Below, piece after piece: positions 30,436 to 42,229 of a stretch of 44,828 nucleotides of DNA. The first letter of the stretch is position 1, and each line of letters starts with the position of its first letter. Source of the stretch: an uncultured Bacteroidales bacterium (GTDB taxonomy: Bacteria > Bacteroidota > Bacteroidia > Bacteroidales > JACABE01); assembly GCA_903899825.1 (NCBI GenBank), contig CAIUKU010000500.1, positions 1-44,828 on the forward strand, given 5' to 3'. A model generated the notes under the pieces. It ran no database searches and was not told the origin of the DNA. It worked only from the letters and a program-made list of their open reading frames with translations. A program made the position numbers and the translations under genes.

Positions 30436-31392
30436 TTATGAATTAGCAAAAAATATTGGCATATATAAAAGTTTATTTTTTTCAAGAAATTGTACGGCAG
30501 TATTGTGATCAAATGTAAAAGCTGTCAGATATCCACCGCCACCTGAACCACAGAGTTTCATGATTAGACTGTTGCTTTCCAGTCCATCCTTCCATACCTT
30601 TATCATTTTATCTGGTATTAATGTATGCATATTACTGAGTTGAAATGCAGACAATGCCAGCAAACTGTTGCGAAAATCATTGATATTACCGCTAAGTAAA
30701 GAATTTATGCATTGATCTGTAAGGCTGACAAATAACTTGGCGGCTTCATTCAATTTTCCATCTGTTGCAAACTGATCTAAAAAAACAGTAACCAATGGGT
30801 TGCTCTTACATGATTCGCCTGTATCTAAAAGAAAACCTGAAACATTTTCACTCACACTGTTTCGGGGAATCTCAACAATGGATGGTTTTCTTTCATTACT
30901 TATAAATAAAGGTTTACTGATGTATATGCTGAGCGGATCAATACCCGATGAGGTGCCATGAAAGAAAGATTCCATATGAGAAAATAGCTTGAAAAGTTTT
31001 TCCATTTCATATTCACTAAGATTTTTATTGGATATATTTTTAAAAGAATAACGTGAATAAACTGCAGCTACAACAGTTCCAGAACTTCCAAGTCCATAGC
31101 TGTTTGGAATGGTGGATTTAAGATAAAGTCCGTTAGAAATATCAAGTCGAAAACGATTCAGATCAAGAATTTGAATATAATTTTCAAATTCTTCCAAATA
31201 ATTCAGTAATTCAAGGAGATGCTGTTGACTTTCCTCTGCTTGTTTCAGATCGATATTTTTATCATCCTGAATAAAACAGAACTCAGCATTGAAATGATTG
31301 TAAGGAATACTTAGTGCTGAAGATCCCAACAAAATGGAATATTCTCCAAAGAGTAGAATTTTAGCGGAATAAGATGGATTACAACTAATCAT
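30436..31392 (-). CDS. mvk: Mevalonate kinase-like GHMP kinase
   Basis: The 318-residue GHMP kinase should phosphorylate mevalonate. Visible are the N-terminal SAKILLFGEYSIL motif (about 9-21), the phosphate loop PNSYGLGSSGTVVAA (about 96-110), the candidate catalytic Asp in GTSSGIDPLSIYIS, and C-terminal motif 3, MKLCGSGGGGYLTAF. KILLFGEY is the usual mevalonate-kinase form. It is the last gene of the five-gene mevalonate operon, 12 bases after the decarboxylase. The operon has two kinases of this superfamily; I assign this one to mevalonate and the GYDIA-type kinase to phosphomevalonate by similarity of the N-terminal motif, but the roles could be reversed. Confidence 0.8.
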   Translation of the reverse strand: MISCNPSYSAKILLFGEYSILLGSSALSIPYNHFNAEFCFIQDDKNIDLKQAEESQQHLLELLNYLEEFENYIQILDLNRFRLDISNGLYLKSTIPNSYGLGSSGTVVAAVYSRYSFKNISNKNLSEYEMEKLFKLFSHMESFFHGTSSGIDPLSIYISKPLFISNERKPSIVEIPRNSVSENVSGFLLDTGESCKSNPLVTVFLDQFATDGKLNEAAKLFVSLTDQCINSLLSGNINDFRNSLLALSAFQLSNMHTLIPDKMIKVWKDGLESNSLIMKLCGSGGGGYLTAFTFDHNTAVQFLEKNKLLYMPIFFANS

Positions 31393-31404
31393 TTGAAGGT
31401 ATAA

Positions 31405-32496
31405 TTAATCAATTTCATTCATTTTTTGTGGTCCTGTACCGGCATAATCAAATATAAGTTTGTTTTCCGGACAGATGTCATTTAATTCGGAAAGTATAAA
31501 AGCCTTTACTTTCTCTTTTTCTGATTCAGGATAAATCAGGTGTATGTTCGGACCCGCATCGATGGTGAAAAAAATGGGTAGTCCTTTTAGTCTGAAATTG
31601 CGAATACGTTGAATCAATTCAAGGCTGGCAGGCTCTAACAAAATATCTCCATTACGAGAACTCATAATTAACGCATGCAAACTTAAAGCCTCGTTTTCAG
31701 TAAGCTGAGCAAGTAATTCCAGATCACCTTCCGCAAGTGCTTTTTGGAATAATTTAAGGTGGCTTTTTGCCTGTATAACACGTCCTGCTGCATAGGGATG
31801 TTCTTTCATTAAATCATGACCGCTACTACTGCTCAACCTTTTTTCTTTAGCTGATACCAGCAGAATAGCATCCTGAAGATGATGGAAATCAGGATGTATA
31901 TGCTCATTGATATCAATAGCGTATAAATCAGAGCTATTCTTCCAGTCTTTCGAAACACCCCAAAGTGAAAATCCGCCATAAACAGAGCGGCAAGCACTTC
32001 CAGATCCCAAGCGCGACAGCCACGATGCATATTTAATAAACACATCATGAGGCAATTGTTTTCCGGAAATTTCTTTGGCAAGATCAACCACAGCAAGTGT
32101 TAGCGCACTGAAACCCGATGCCGAGGATGCAATACCGGCTGAATGCGGAAATGTGTTTTGAGTATGAATATCAATTCTATAATCTTTAAATAATGGTATT
32201 TCCTTTACCACTGTTAGCCAAAATGGTGCTATTTTTTGTAGGAAAGGATGTTGCTTATTATTGTTTATCCCACTGATTCCAGGATTGATTGCATCGGGAT
32301 AAGCAGTTATTTTTGTTGTTGTATGCGCTTCGGAAAGGCTGAAGCTTATAGATGGATTTATTGGAAGCTGCCCTTCACTTTTACCCCAGTATTTAAGCAG
32401 GGCAATATTGGAAGGGCTTCTCCATATAGTTGAAAATACTTCATCATTTTTTGCTTTCCAACTCAGTATTTCATGCTGTATTTCTGTTAACTCCAT
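31405..32496 (-). CDS. mvaD: Diphosphomevalonate decarboxylase
   Basis: The enzyme converts mevalonate 5-diphosphate to isopentenyl diphosphate with ATP. The 363-residue protein carries the full set of family motifs: LLKYWGKSEGQLPINPSIS (about 33-51), HSAGIASSASGFSAL, LSRLGSGSACRSVYGGF, and TIDAGPNIH with the catalytic Asp. The Arg of the third motif and the Lys of KYWGK are both present. Its start is three bases after the stop of the GYDIA-type kinase, so translation is likely coupled. Its unambiguous identity, rather than that of a phosphomevalonate decarboxylase, supports a classical eukaryote-like mevalonate route with two phosphorylations. Confidence 0.9.
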   Translation of the reverse strand: MELTEIQHEILSWKAKNDEVFSTIWRSPSNIALLKYWGKSEGQLPINPSISFSLSEAHTTTKITAYPDAINPGISGINNNKQHPFLQKIAPFWLTVVKEIPLFKDYRIDIHTQNTFPHSAGIASSASGFSALTLAVVDLAKEISGKQLPHDVFIKYASWLSRLGSGSACRSVYGGFSLWGVSKDWKNSSDLYAIDINEHIHPDFHHLQDAILLVSAKEKRLSSSSGHDLMKEHPYAAGRVIQAKSHLKLFQKALAEGDLELLAQLTENEALSLHALIMSSRNGDILLEPASLELIQRIRNFRLKGLPIFFTIDAGPNIHLIYPESEKEKVKAFILSELNDICPENKLIFDYAGTGPQKMNEID

Positions 32497-32499
32497 TTT

Positions 32500-33429
32500 T
32501 TAATATTTAATTACAAAATCATCATATGAAAAGAGGGTAGTTAAACCCAGTTGTTTAAGATCTTCTCTTAATTCGTCAATTGATTTATCTGCTGTGAACA
32601 TGGCAAAATCGCCACCCCAGGCTCCCAGTGATTTTACTGATCCCCGGAATTCAGAAAAACGTTGCTGAGCCAAAACAGGTTTTTGGATGATGGAAGAGAT
32701 AATATGTTCATGTTCTGTCGTAATTTCAATAAGTTCACTGGCACTGGTAGCCTTACAAAACTCATCAGACAGTTCTGATATGCGATCAATTAGCTTTTGA
32801 GAAGGAATTTCAGCTTTTTTATACCGTTCAATTTCATCCTTACTGTTCTGTTTGTTTCCGAGATAAGCAAAAATACAATGATTTTTAATTCCGTTCCCAA
32901 ATTCTGTCAATGTAATTTTTGGCATTTTATCAGTCATTTGGTAAAATATTGGTCTTTGCTGTGATGCACAAGCGATATCGTAAGCTGAACCATCCGTGAG
33001 CTTTTTGTAAAGCGAAAACTCATTGATACATGCCCATCGTGATATCAGATAAATCAAGGTAGAACTGCTGCCAAATCCCCATTTCAGGGGATAATCTGCT
33101 TTTATATCTATTGAAAATCCACATTGAGTAAAAAGGAATTCAGGGTTTAAATTGCGGGCATGCTGTAGTATATTTTTCAATTCAAAAGCAATTGCTGTAT
33201 CTGATGTAGTAAGGATAGATAAATCAGGCAAAGAAAAAGAAGCGGTAAACCAGATCTGATCGTTCTGAATACTTTTCCAGTTGATTATATGATCAGGTAT
33301 TGATTTGATATTAATTTCCTGACCATAACGAATTGGAAATGCAAGCGCTTTTGCCCCGTTCATGACCAGGTATTCTCCACTTATCAGTAGCTTGCCATTG
33401 GCTTTAAGCCTAAAGTCAGTGTTCATCAA
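32500..33429 (-). CDS. GYDIA-type GHMP kinase, probable phosphomevalonate kinase
   Basis: This 309-residue protein belongs to the GHMP kinases found in Bacteroidota mevalonate operons and known for a GYDIA signature, here GSAYDIA near residue 147. The N-terminus NGKLLISGEYLVMNGAKA and the phosphate loop WGFGSSST (about 116-123) are visible; motif 3 appears as SLGAWGGDFAMF near the end, weaker than in typical GHMP kinases. Since mevalonate kinase and the decarboxylase are also in the operon, the remaining step is phosphomevalonate phosphorylation, which I infer for this gene. It overlaps the HMG-CoA reductase stop by 14 bases. Confidence 0.75.
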   Translation of the reverse strand: MMNTDFRLKANGKLLISGEYLVMNGAKALAFPIRYGQEINIKSIPDHIINWKSIQNDQIWFTASFSLPDLSILTTSDTAIAFELKNILQHARNLNPEFLFTQCGFSIDIKADYPLKWGFGSSSTLIYLISRWACINEFSLYKKLTDGSAYDIACASQQRPIFYQMTDKMPKITLTEFGNGIKNHCIFAYLGNKQNSKDEIERYKKAEIPSQKLIDRISELSDEFCKATSASELIEITTEHEHIISSIIQKPVLAQQRFSEFRGSVKSLGAWGGDFAMFTADKSIDELREDLKQLGLTTLFSYDDFVIKY

Positions 33430-34723
33430 TAAACTGTTTTACAGCTGAGAAACTAACTTTTTGTCCCGAAAAGAATTCTGTTGCCAGTTGTCTTTGTCGA
33501 GGTGTGGCTGCTAAAGCATTAAAAATATTTACAAGATGAAGTTTCATGTGCCCTTTTTGAATTCCAATGGTTACCAAACTTTGTACAGCTGCAAAATTGC
33601 TGGATAGTCCAACAGATGCTATGATTGACATAAGTTCAGTAGCAGTTGGATTTCCAAGAATTTCGAGTGATTTTCTGGCGAGAGGATGTAAATTGGTAAT
33701 TCCGCCAACTGTTCCAACTGCCAAAGGAATACACAACCATATTCTGATATGGTCGTTTATAATCTCACATTGGCTCAGTGCTCTGTATTGTCCGCTTCTT
33801 GCGGCAAAAGCATGGGCTCCTGCTTCAGCTGCACGCCAATCATTTCCTGTTGCAATTATCACAGCATCAACTCCATTCATGATGCCTTTGTTATGTGTTG
33901 TTGCACGGTAAACATCATTCCATGCTATTTGGTAAGCCAGTTCAACTTTTTGTGCAAATTGCAAGGGACTCATGCCTGAAGTGATTCCCAGAAGGTTACG
34001 GATAGGACAACCAACCTCCACTGTTACGGTACAATTTTCCACATAATTACTAAGTATTGACATTACAATCCGACAATCAGCATCTTCATGGTTTTTCCCG
34101 TGATTGAGGCCTTCATCTAAACCTTGTGCAAGCTCTTCCAGACAGGTATTTATAAAGTTGGCTCCCATAGAGTTCACAGTATCAAATTCAACAATAAGTC
34201 GAAAGAGATGATCTGTTTTGTGACGGTCGTCCGACAATTCAAGTTTTATAATTCCACCTCCACGTTGAACCATACTTGATGTAACAAATTTCAGTCTTGA
34301 TAATAAACTAATTTTGAGATGAGTCCATGCATCATATAAATCTTTATCACTCCCAAACCATTGAAAATATACATGCCCAAGTTTAGTAGTTGTAATTTCT
34401 TTGACTGCAAAGCCTCCACGATCGGCCCAAAAGCGGGCAGCACTTGCAGCAGCTGCAACTACTGAACTTTCTTCGGTAACCATAGGCACATGATAAATAT
34501 TGCCATTCACGACAAAATTTGGTGCTATTCCAAAAGGAAGATGAAATGAACTCACTGTGTTTTCACTGAGATCCATAAACATTTCACGACGAATACTATC
34601 CTTAAAAATAAACGAATTCATTTCAAGTTCAGTAATTCCCGGTTCCTCACAAAGATGAGCAACAAGTTTCCGCTTTTCGTTTTCAGCTAATCTTGAGAAA
34701 CCTTTATAAATTTTACCTTTCAT
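33416..34723 (-). CDS. mvaA: HMG-CoA reductase, class II
   Basis: The enzyme reduces HMG-CoA to mevalonate. Its 435 residues and motifs match class II reductases: FHLPFGIAPNFVVNG, the catalytic Glu in VTEESSVVAAAA (about 84-85), the catalytic Lys K279 in THNKGIMNG, Asp295 in ATGNDWRAAEAGAHAFAAR, and a His in GHMKLH near the end. One departure is NSMGANFINT (about 184-193) in place of the usual DAMGAN, which in Pseudomonas mevalonii contacts the dinucleotide; this may affect NADH versus NADPH use. It is the second gene of the operon and the committed step. HMG-CoA synthase is not in this window. Confidence 0.9.
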   Translation of the reverse strand: MKGKIYKGFSRLAENEKRKLVAHLCEEPGITELEMNSFIFKDSIRREMFMDLSENTVSSFHLPFGIAPNFVVNGNIYHVPMVTEESSVVAAAASAARFWADRGGFAVKEITTTKLGHVYFQWFGSDKDLYDAWTHLKISLLSRLKFVTSSMVQRGGGIIKLELSDDRHKTDHLFRLIVEFDTVNSMGANFINTCLEELAQGLDEGLNHGKNHEDADCRIVMSILSNYVENCTVTVEVGCPIRNLLGITSGMSPLQFAQKVELAYQIAWNDVYRATTHNKGIMNGVDAVIIATGNDWRAAEAGAHAFAARSGQYRALSQCEIINDHIRIWLCIPLAVGTVGGITNLHPLARKSLEILGNPTATELMSIIASVGLSSNFAAVQSLVTIGIQKGHMKLHLVNIFNALAATPRQRQLATEFFSGQKVSFSAVKQFIDEH

Positions 34724-38782: not shown

Positions 38783-41700
38783 CTAGATTTTTACAAAATG
38801 AGTTCCAGAAATAATTTTTCCATTCTGTTGAATTTGAACCCAATAACAACCTTTAGCCAAGTCAGATACATTTATTTCAATATTTTCATTATGAATGACA
38901 GGAATAAATTTTGTTCTTATTATCTTTCCGAAAGTATTGTATATTAGTATTTTGATTTCATTTAACTGATAATTTTTAGTGCTTATGCTTAATATATCTT
39001 TTGCTGGATTAGGGAAGATGTTGAAAATGATAAGATTATTCTCTTTAATTCCTGATACAGAATTTACAATGAAACTAAAATTAATTTCTCTTCCAAAATC
39101 AGATTCAAAACCATAAGCTGTCACATAACCGTTGCTGATTTTTTTATTTAACATCGCTTGTCCTGCAGTTCCATTTCCATTAGGAGGCATATTAGCCCAA
39201 AATTTCAAACCATCGTCTCCCAAATCTGTTAAGGTTATTTTATAACATCCATTTGCAAGACTGAAATTTTTTGAATACCAAGTGTTTGCATTCATTATAG
39301 TATCACTTTGACTTAAAATATTTCCATTAACATCTTCCACTTTCCAACTGGTTTCATTAGGTTTGTAATTAGTAAAGAAATCCATTTGATATTCGTTTTC
39401 AGTAAAAACAGGAACTGAATTAAAAATTGTCGATAATCGGTTATTAAATAGATATTCATCTGTTAGCCCATTTGGCAATTTAAGTTGAGCCCAAAAACTT
39501 CCTGCAGAGCCACTAATCGAATTCCAGTCTGGTGTTGGTAATATAATTTCAGTCGTCTCTAAAAAAGCGAGATTTCCACTCCAATGATATATATTAGTAT
39601 TACCTGAAGTAAATCCATACTCAATGTCAATTGAAGTTAAATTGTTTTTCCCGGTATTTTTGATTTTTACAATTGGTTTTCCACAAATAGGATTAAAACG
39701 GCTGAGAATTTCGTAATTATTTGGAGCAATAATTTCCTCTAATGCTGCATCATTTTGAAAGTTAGGATTAGAATATGAAACCAATTGTGATTCTGTGATA
39801 TAATTACCATCAGGATCGTAATCAATATCGTAATCAATAGTAATTTGATTATTTGCAATATAATTGCCCAGTTCAAATTCCTGAATGGTAGCAGGCATCC
39901 CAGGGCACCAGGCTGCTCTGTCGTAAACCCAGGTTCCTCCCTGTGGATAGAGAGGGTTTAGAGCACAGGGTTGTAAAATTTGCCATTGCCGTATAGTTTG
40001 TCCGTTAACTTTCATCTTATGTATATTTGAACAAAATTCGGCACAATTATTAGTAACTCCCATTCCATGACCAGTGAGGGTAGTTCTAAGTTTGAGCATT
40101 TTTTCGTTGCTATCAATAGGGATCGTTTTTGCTACAACTTTTGTATCAAAATTACTTAAATTGAAATTTCCCTGCCAAATGTTTTTAATCTGTATAACAT
40201 CACGGGGAGGAGTGCCTTCAATAAAAGCGAATTTTAAATCAAGCATTTCCTGAAAATTCCCGGCTTTTAAATATACAGTATCTTTTAATAAACTTACAAA
40301 ATCAGAAACATCATATGTCCATTGCCATCCATTACCCAGTGACAAGCCATTTCCGTATGGTGTAATAAAGCGGCCCAATTCCCATTTATTGATAATTTCA
40401 AAAGGATTTCCGTAATAAATTGTGTTTTTTTGTATGAATGTAGTATCAGTTGTTGAAAGAACTGAATCTATTGCAAAACCATTGCTGTCATATGTATATC
40501 TGTAAAAAGACTGCCATTTATAAATAGTATCTGTTGGAGTTGTTGGATGTAAATTGTCTCCATAAATTACTATCATTACCGGAGTATTCAGAAGAGAGTC
40601 AAGTATGAATGTAGAATCAATATGTGATTGATATACTCCTTTCTCAAATATTATTATAGGCCTGTAATTTGTATTACTAAAGTTTTTAAACCGGATTCCT
40701 TTATAATTCTGCCAGTTTTGAATTCCTGAAAAAAGAGCCGCGTTCTGTGATTGTAAACTTATATCATTAGTAAACCCGCCAATGCCTTCATTAAAGTCAT
40801 ACGAATAAATCAGATGTTGAAAATCGGGATGAGTAGTTGTGATTTTATTAAACATTAATTGTTTTATTGAAACACTGTTTAATTCTGTATTCCAGACAGA
40901 AAAATCATCAATAGAACCTTTGTAATTTCCATTTTGATAGGATAAAGCACTTCCGATTATAAACCGGTTTATAGTATCCATCAATTTTACTTTAGCTGTA
41001 CCACTTTGCCATAGGTTTCCATTCAAATAAATTTTCATACTTCCACTCTGGCAGTTTTTTGTAAATGTCCAATGATTCCAGTTTCCTTTAAAATCAGTTG
41101 CCAGAGCAAGTTTATTAATTCGGTCATAAGTGTTTTTTCCTGCATCCCAATAAACATTGCTGTTGCTCCAGGGTAGATGTGCATTCAATAATCTGGTGTT
41201 TGCTGAATTTACACCTTCAAAAGCAGAACAGTTTGAAGGTTGCCCATTTAAATCTCCATTTTGCCAAAACATAATTGTAATATTTGAATCAAGCATACTA
41301 AATCTTGATTTAGGAACTTCAAGAAAATTATTTAACCCAAAACTAATATAGTTATCTGTTGAATTGCTTAGTAAACCGGAAGCAAATCCTGTCGTATTCG
41401 CTAATAAATTTATGTTTCCTGAATTGTTAGTGTAAGAAATATCAATAATAATACTGGAAACTCCATCCCAACTATATGGCTGTATAAAATGGAAATATTT
41501 CCATCCGTTTGAAAGTAATGAAGTTGTATTGCTATATACTGTTGTTAAATTTGTAATCGAAGCAGGAACAGACAAGGTATCACTATTACTTTGTTTCATT
41601 CTGATTGTTATTTTTGCAATACAAGAATTGAATAATCCTGAAATATTTAAACGAATTCCACTCAGATTTCCCATTGTTAATCCTGAAGCAATTAATTCAC

Positions 41701-42229
41701 TGGCTTTCCAGATATAAATGTTTCTACCATCGGGGATTCCTGATAAAAAAGGCTGAACAGTAGTTGAAGTCATATTCCCAACTATTGTCGAATCAAAAGA
41801 AATTACATTGTCATAAACAATATGTGATTCAAAATGAGGCAGATATTTTATGGATGGAGAATTTCTTAGTTTTACGGTATCAGTAAGCGTTCCTGTAAAA
41901 TTAAAATATTTATATTTCTGTTGAGTGTATTGAGTTGAATCATACTTTTTTGTATGTTCAAAAAGGTAAGTGTAACTCAGATAATCCCATTCTCCACATT
42001 GAGGATTCTGCCCCGGATCACATTTGAGCTTATAATACATCAGTACTTTTTCAAATTTTTTTCCTGCAAAAGAAGGGAAAACAAAACTGCCTTCTCTTGA
42101 ATTTAAACCTGATGGTCGTGGCCAGTTGAAATCAAAAGTCTGAACTATCGTTGTATCTCCTGGTCCGGCAATTAAATTTGTTTGTAATAATAGGATTATT
42201 ACTACAAATATAAAATTGATTTTTTTCAT
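38783..42229 (-). CDS. T9SS-exported PNGase F-like protein with LamG insertion
   Basis: The 1148-residue protein has a signal peptide (about 1-21) and a T9SS type A sorting domain at the end (about 1070-1148: IFPNPAKDILSIST, KGCYWVQIQQNGK). Between them are sequences matching both halves of peptide-N-glycosidase F: residues 28-92 (TFDFNWP, CGEWDYLSYTY) and 613-680 (WELGRFITPYGNG, DVSDFVSLL) match the first domain, and 700-800 (LRTTLTGHG, NNCAEFCSNIH, YDRAAWCPGMP) the second. D82, a Glu near 661 and E731 fit D60, E118 and E206 of Elizabethkingia PNGase F. About 500 residues, including a LamG-like fold at about 290-460, lie between the two parts of the first domain. The likely role is cleaving N-glycans outside the cell. 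Confidence 0.85.
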   Translation of the reverse strand: MKKINFIFVVIILLLQTNLIAGPGDTTIVQTFDFNWPRPSGLNSREGSFVFPSFAGKKFEKVLMYYKLKCDPGQNPQCGEWDYLSYTYLFEHTKKYDSTQYTQQKYKYFNFTGTLTDTVKLRNSPSIKYLPHFESHIVYDNVISFDSTIVGNMTSTTVQPFLSGIPDGRNIYIWKASELIASGLTMGNLSGIRLNISGLFNSCIAKITIRMKQSNSDTLSVPASITNLTTVYSNTTSLLSNGWKYFHFIQPYSWDGVSSIIIDISYTNNSGNINLLANTTGFASGLLSNSTDNYISFGLNNFLEVPKSRFSMLDSNITIMFWQNGDLNGQPSNCSAFEGVNSANTRLLNAHLPWSNSNVYWDAGKNTYDRINKLALATDFKGNWNHWTFTKNCQSGSMKIYLNGNLWQSGTAKVKLMDTINRFIIGSALSYQNGNYKGSIDDFSVWNTELNSVSIKQLMFNKITTTHPDFQHLIYSYDFNEGIGGFTNDISLQSQNAALFSGIQNWQNYKGIRFKNFSNTNYRPIIIFEKGVYQSHIDSTFILDSLLNTPVMIVIYGDNLHPTTPTDTIYKWQSFYRYTYDSNGFAIDSVLSTTDTTFIQKNTIYYGNPFEIINKWELGRFITPYGNGLSLGNGWQWTYDVSDFVSLLKDTVYLKAGNFQEMLDLKFAFIEGTPPRDVIQIKNIWQGNFNLSNFDTKVVAKTIPIDSNEKMLKLRTTLTGHGMGVTNNCAEFCSNIHKMKVNGQTIRQWQILQPCALNPLYPQGGTWVYDRAAWCPGMPATIQEFELGNYIANNQITIDYDIDYDPDGNYITESQLVSYSNPNFQNDAALEEIIAPNNYEILSRFNPICGKPIVKIKNTGKNNLTSIDIEYGFTSGNTNIYHWSGNLAFLETTEIILPTPDWNSISGSAGSFWAQLKLPNGLTDEYLFNNRLSTIFNSVPVFTENEYQMDFFTNYKPNETSWKVEDVNGNILSQSDTIMNANTWYSKNFSLANGCYKITLTDLGDDGLKFWANMPPNGNGTAGQAMLNKKISNGYVTAYGFESDFGREINFSFIVNSVSGIKENNLIIFNIFPNPAKDILSISTKNYQLNEIKILIYNTFGKIIRTKFIPVIHNENIEINVSDLAKGCYWVQIQQNGKIISGTHFVKI

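Follow-up and report, generated by a model that had tools for sequence, protein, structure and literature searches.

A PNGase F-like protein of an uncultured Bacteroidales bacterium with a LamG-containing insertion inside its first catalytic domain

Described PNGases and the split protein

PNGase F from Elizabethkingia (1pgs, 1pnf and 3pms) has a two-domain core with which the protein studied here is colinear, and the two have in common D60, E206 and R248, three disulfide pairs, an aromatic residue of the W120 type and the aromatic-Asp motif. They differ in that about 520 residues of the present protein stand in place of a short turn of PNGase F, which also has E118 where the present protein has Gly and contains no LamG module. 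Nor is PNGase F known to have a T9SS domain. The type II enzymes PNGase F-II and PNGasePm resemble the split protein in having Gly at the E118 position (PMC9522356), but they carry an N-terminal NBL domain instead of the insertion. The NBL domain is absent from the split protein, in which the N-terminal PNGase half starts at residue 25 and leaves no room for it, and a profile of the split family matched the type II structure 7zgn only weakly (0.0032). The zebrafish acid PNGase Ngly2 (9lwg; match 2.2e-14) likewise combines a PNGase core with an accessory domain, and its Asp421 and Glu555, the equivalent Asp and Glu, are both essential (PMC12753239). Ngly2 is, however, a lysosomal animal enzyme with an unsplit core, and its accessory domains (Tx-like and PA) are N-terminal. 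PNGaseL from Flavobacterium akiainvivens and PNGaseDo from Draconibacterium orientale are assayed enzymes that, like the split protein, come from Bacteroidota and have T9SS tails and accessory modules; in the published descriptions these modules flank the catalytic domain on its N- or C-terminal side, and no internal insertion is mentioned (PMC12381499). The PNGase tree in the same study comprises 1897 sequences. In the open-licence papers searched we found no described or assayed example of the split, lectin-armed architecture, and searches of such papers for LamG-bearing or type IX-secreted PNGases gave nothing relevant. The split PNGases apparently constitute a large uncharacterised branch, of which the core is known, the split architecture and its breadth being absent from the papers searched.

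A PNGase F core in two pieces

The window, i.e. the whole stretch of 44,828 nucleotides that was analysed, from what is presumably a lake bacterium, encodes the split PNGase F-like protein (1148 aa) at 38783..42229 on the (-) strand, to which all features of the protein given below also belong. The open reading frame has an ATG start and no internal stops. Its first 21 residues (MKKINFIFVVIILLLQTNLIA; 42167..42229), as read from the sequence, form a Sec-type signal peptide, and the N-termini of relatives are similar. The N-terminal half of PNGase domain 1, which comprises four strands, spans residues 25-91 (41957..42157) as judged by the match to PNGase F and by the model strands, and the C-terminal half, residues 613-685 (WELGRFITPYG...; 40175..40393), was delimited by the PNGase F match and by alignment to L052, an unsplit member of the same family. 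Domain 2 (residues 686-815; 39785..40174) follows directly, with eight model strands and a Pfam N-glycanase_C match (PF09113) at residues 695-803 (3.4e-15; 56.5 bits against a cut-off of 25), and is succeeded by a C-terminal beta region (residues 816-1065; 39035..39784) that is common to L052. The Pfam model N-glycanase_N (PF09112) matched weakly at residues 615-655, and its score (14.7 bits) falls below the cut-off of 22.4 because the split defeats that model.

The first-pass annotation had proposed that the first domain of PNGase F is present here as two consecutive parts separated by about 520 residues, and this proposal is confirmed. Searching PDB sequences, we found that PNGase F (3pms) matches the 1148-aa protein in two pieces, residues 21-91 and 616-801. 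A profile built from 77 split relatives and run against 1pnf gave the same picture, positions 3-63 corresponding to chain residues 5-71 (conditional E 8.6e-7) and positions 585-777 to residues 74-282 (7.5e-24); in PNGase F the pieces directly adjoin, and in the split family they lie 522 profile positions apart. L052 (654 aa) served as an unsplit control. Residues 1-89 and 616-1140 of the split protein align to its residues 1-87 and 100-652, so that the two proteins share the N-terminus, the core, the C-terminal beta region and the T9SS sorting domain, and the sole large difference between them is the 12 versus 526 residues at the insert site, the hairpin of domain 1. At the level of sequence these comparisons confirm a catalytic core that matches PNGase F colinearly, with an interruption of about 520 residues in its first domain.

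The architecture is widespread. A scan of species genomes gave at least 508 relatives, of which 80 were kept, all spanning the query from near its start to about residue 800. These come from Bacteroidales, Flavobacteriales, Chitinophagales, Sphingobacteriales, Chlorobiota and Ignavibacteria, and almost all are metagenome-assembled. Among them the distance from CGEWD to TPYG varies little (about 530-550 residues), and since relatives with readable ends preserve it, the spacing is not a matter of chance. With a profile of the insert only, matches at E <= 1e-30 were obtained in 102 of 395 sampled Bacteroidia genomes, a figure that is approximate since some matches are partial or represent copies of one inserted domain (INS1, see below) in other proteins; there was mostly one match per genome, and the matched ORFs were mostly about 1140-1220 aa long. 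The nearest relative (L042/L056), a Bacteroidales protein of the same genus from an environmental sample, is 75% identical over the queried part, and the isolate name Loc090721-8-6m suggests that the sample came from a lake. The genome assembly consists of 526 contigs, and one might suspect a chimeric assembly or a fusion of neighbouring genes. Such an artefact is exceedingly improbable and was rejected, as the same continuous architecture recurs in dozens of independent genomes, including that of this same-genus relative.

Conservation of the active site

Residue conservation was counted over 78 split proteins at about 40% identity. C70, C78, W81, D82, Y83, G657, N658, Q660, E661, H721, C729, E731 and C755 are invariant (78/78), and C733, R771, W774 and C775 are found in 77, the one remaining protein having a gap at R771, W774 and C775. 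The catalytic Asp60 of PNGase F corresponds to Asp82 of the W81-D82-Y83 motif (41984..41986) in the PNGase F alignments. Glu206 corresponds to E731, which is situated inside its disulfide in C729-A-E731-F-C733 (40031..40045), and R248/W251/C252 correspond to R771...W774-C775-P-G (39899..39919). All three disulfide pairs of PNGase F are retained, C51-C56 as C70/C78 (41996..42022), C204-C208 as C729/C733, and C231-C252 as C755/C775. The retention of D60 and E206 had thus been predicted correctly, and D82, E661 and E731 were located where the first-pass annotation had put them.

With regard to E118, which had been thought probably kept, the alignments give a different answer. The loop G657-N-F-Q-E661 (40247..40261) faces E118-T-W120 of PNGase F, and in the profile alignment the E118 position is taken by the invariant Gly657; other PNGases have an [ED]-T-W motif that corresponds to G-N-[W/F] here, W/F659 facing W120. 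An ungapped alignment instead places Phe659 at the E118 position, and Glu661 equals E118 in neither alignment. The absence of Glu118 does not exclude the protein from the family, because Glu118 is a feature of type I alone, type II PNGases having Gly at this position and Bacteroides group 1 PNGases Asp (PMC9522356). Type II enzymes accept core alpha1,3-fucose (PMC9522356), and since Gly657 occupies the E118 position as in these enzymes, the same tolerance is predicted for the split proteins.

The split protein is likely an active amidase, since D82, E731, Arg771 and the disulfide cysteines are essentially invariant at about 40% identity. Comparison of the gene with that of L042 gave pN/pS values of 0.12-0.17 in the core and 0.23-0.36 in the insert, indicating purifying selection in both, with the lowest values in the catalytic halves. 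A conceivable alternative is that the same fold acts as an amidase on another bond, for instance in glycoconjugates of other bacteria or in non-glycan amides. The family is divergent, and the cores known to have been assayed are PNGase F-like and unsplit, which would leave room for this. PNGases hold the first GlcNAc through an aromatic-Asp-aromatic motif and through His and Glu (PMC12381499), however, and these contacts (W81-D82-Y83, H721 and E731) are all present and invariant in the split proteins; moreover, the six diverse PNGases assayed in the same study all act on N-glycoproteins. We consider a different target bond improbable.

Make-up, origin and placement of the insertion

The insertion is itself composite. 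Its outer part, a beta insert of about 110 aa, is divided into a first arm (residues 92-130; 41840..41956), which aligns with the relatives L185, L186, L188, L191 and L202, and a second arm (residues 526-612; 40394..40654), delimited by HMMs for the separate pieces and by alignment to these intermediate relatives. Within this outer insert sits a module of about 395 aa (about residues 131-525) that consists of INS1, a mobile beta domain of adhesin type (residues 131-297; 41339..41839), and LamG (residues 301-455; 40865..41329). INS1 and the outer insert gave no match to Pfam or NCBIfam models up to E = 10. The LamG-like module, which had been noticed before, was recovered by the Pfam model Laminin_G_3 (PF13385; 2.2e-12, 54 bits against a cut-off of 27.6), and a separate Foldseek search with the insert gave pentraxins and PAPP-A, which are LamG-type folds, as well as 4dqa, a putative carbohydrate-binding Bacteroides protein. 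The LamG carries family-specific conserved residues (H351-P353-W354, Y360-D362-G364 and D369-R370), and 28 of its 173 positions are conserved at >=95%, comparable to domain 2 (19/130). LamG domains may have proteins or ions as ligands instead of glycans.

Using the piece HMMs, we found that the gap between the core halves falls into three classes of 2-17, 107-112 and 496-528 residues. In the middle class (L185, L186, L188, L191 and L202) the segments corresponding to residues 92-130 and 526-612 form one continuous insert of about 110 aa. As read from these sequences, the origin of the arm is nested: a beta insert of about 110 aa was later interrupted by INS1 and LamG. In a tree of the C-terminal halves, the split proteins form one group together with truncated ones, L200 and L199 (99/89), and this group adjoins L185 and L191 of the middle class (100/99) in what is an unrooted tree. 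L199 (588-aa ORF) has no insert and yet falls within the split clade; since forcing its exclusion from the group was rejected (p-AU 0.0022), its sequence points to a secondary loss of the insert, i.e. to a natural deletion form. L200 was considered as a form without the N-terminal half and rejected, an in-frame TAA being found inside an otherwise complete split gene. This TAA lies at about nt 2055, within INS1, and represents a pseudogene or an assembly error.

INS1, a beta domain of about 150 aa, occurs at 12 further sites in the same genome, almost all of them in giant ORFs of 2573-4569 aa, on contigs C296, C491, C331, C229, C415 and C246 (L206-L214). This recurrence in giant ORFs marks it, as far as the sequences tell, as a mobile domain of surface type. 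The other INS1 copies have no LamG of the inserted kind next to them in the stretches examined around them. The possibility that the inserted LamG was relocated from T9SS PNGase-like paralogues of about 840 aa found no support, as these form a separate clade and carry their LamG N-terminally.

The split protein might in principle serve chiefly in surface adhesion or glycan binding, with the PNGase fold retained as a scaffold and catalysis lost or altered. The occurrence of INS1 in giant surface-type proteins encoded by this genome, the absence of E118 and the existence of a split relative with C-terminal SprB repeats (L058) are compatible with this. A scaffold would not need the residues D82, H721, E731, R771 and the disulfides, however, which are essentially invariant in the 78 proteins, and pN/pS is lowest in the catalytic halves; we regard such a role as rather doubtful. 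The SprB repeats of L058 (5992-10074 (+)) are additional and precede its T9SS tail.

To place the insertion relative to the core, we used structure models. An AlphaFold2 model of residues 23-815 had a mean pLDDT of 88 and a pTM of 0.65, and a count along the chain gave four strands on either side of the insert (domain 1), then eight (domain 2). Modelled alone, the insert forms a compact unit (pLDDT 91). Since its pTM (0.87) exceeds that of the whole, the uncertainty of the whole model appears to lie mainly in the relative placement of the arm and the core. Foldseek matched the core to PNGase F (1pgs; TMt 0.55) and also to Ngly2. The PNGase F alignment spans about 228 columns, too few to surely include the N-terminal half, and the joined jelly roll therefore rests on homology and strand count.

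The insertion had been placed next to the catalytic Asp. In sequence it is indeed close to Asp82, but according to the strand order of the model it exits at the distal end of the strand after Asp82, and the loops 623-635 and 657-661 are on the Asp82 side. From this topology, the insert should leave the core on the face opposite the active site. The placement bears on the main rival to a binding arm, namely that the insertion acts as a lid or gate that restricts the substrates entering the cleft, as the PA domain of Ngly2 does. That PA domain lies over the active site and narrows the range of substrates (PMC12753239), accessory modules of PNGaseDo, PNGaseCg and PNGaseDr have been modelled above the active site (PMC12381499), and the strong conservation of the LamG would be compatible with an interdomain contact of this kind. 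A hairpin end opposite Asp82 and both loops argues against a lid, however, and the low pTM of the whole model lends no support to a fixed one. We consider the lid unlikely, although less so than the other alternatives.

Export, genomic setting and proposed role

The protein ends in a T9SS type A sorting domain (residues 1071-1138; 38816..39019; Por_Secre_tail 2.1e-15), which also scored 33.8 bits against a cut-off of 23 with TIGR04183, and the same genome encodes the T9SS machinery protein SprA (2413-aa ORF; 7e-173). Export by T9SS, as first suggested, is supported at the sequence level by the signal peptide, the sorting domain and the SprA gene. Taken as a whole, the first-pass annotation stands in its split, LamG, D60/E206 and T9SS parts and is not supported on E118 and on the location of the insertion; the nested make-up, wide distribution, intermediates and secondary loss had escaped it.

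The split gene is an orphan. Its neighbours encode an ABC-F-type ATPase, an M50 peptidase, a HAD phosphatase and a TMEM175 channel, and no glycan genes were found next to it. When 580 flanking ORFs were compared all-against-all, no family occurred in more than nine loci, and none of the recurrent flanking families listed includes the analysed window. Most PNGase genes studied in PMC12381499 are likewise orphans. Elsewhere in the window, a mevalonate-pathway cluster is present at 30436-34723 (-), with HMG-CoA reductase, a diphosphomevalonate decarboxylase-like gene and a GHMP kinase.

The same genome contains two GH92 genes and seven PNGase-like genes. In L049 (2364-5711 (+)) an unsplit PNGase F-like domain is fused to a C-terminal GH29-type alpha-L-fucosidase (PF01120; 5.1e-86), likely giving a two-step N-glycan enzyme as judged by its domains, and this fusion is a pointer to fucosylated N-glycans. 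Together, the GH92 genes, the seven PNGase-like genes and L049 lend indirect support to a role on glycoproteins. The paralogues of about 840 aa, several with N-terminal LamG, are L038 (C143), L039 (C268), L041, L053 and L055; three are in tandem on C143. Since members elsewhere adjoin SusD or TonB-receptor genes, these paralogues look PUL-linked, in contrast to the split gene.

On the whole we find it probable that the protein is a surface PNGase whose lectin arm tethers the enzyme to glycoprotein substrates. It would be exported by Sec across the inner membrane and then by T9SS to the cell surface or the outside. The catalytic core would adopt the usual two eight-stranded jelly rolls, the first being formed by residues 25-91 and 613-685 folded around an arm that emerges from one hairpin and that would have been gained in two steps, the beta insert of about 110 aa first and the INS1 and LamG module within it later. 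Asp82, Glu731 and Arg771 are predicted to hydrolyse the GlcNAc-Asn amide (EC 3.5.1.52), and Gly at the E118 position may leave space for core alpha1,3-fucose. The LamG/INS1 arm would bind a glycan or glycoprotein, retaining the substrate close to the enzyme or anchoring the enzyme to a surface. More tentatively, the split proteins might constitute a distinct and widespread class of surface PNGases, present in roughly one Bacteroidia species in four and mostly as a single copy, in which the two-step nested insertion made the lectin arm and in which the arm, not the pocket, selects the core-fucosylated glycoproteins that are stripped.

PNGases are key tools and an entry point for bacterial N-glycan breakdown. 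In the split family the accessory arm lies within the catalytic domain and not alongside it, and room for core alpha1,3-fucose is predicted. The readable series of forms without insert, with about 110 aa, with about 520 aa and with secondary loss bears on the way in which enzyme domains accommodate nested insertions and put them to use.
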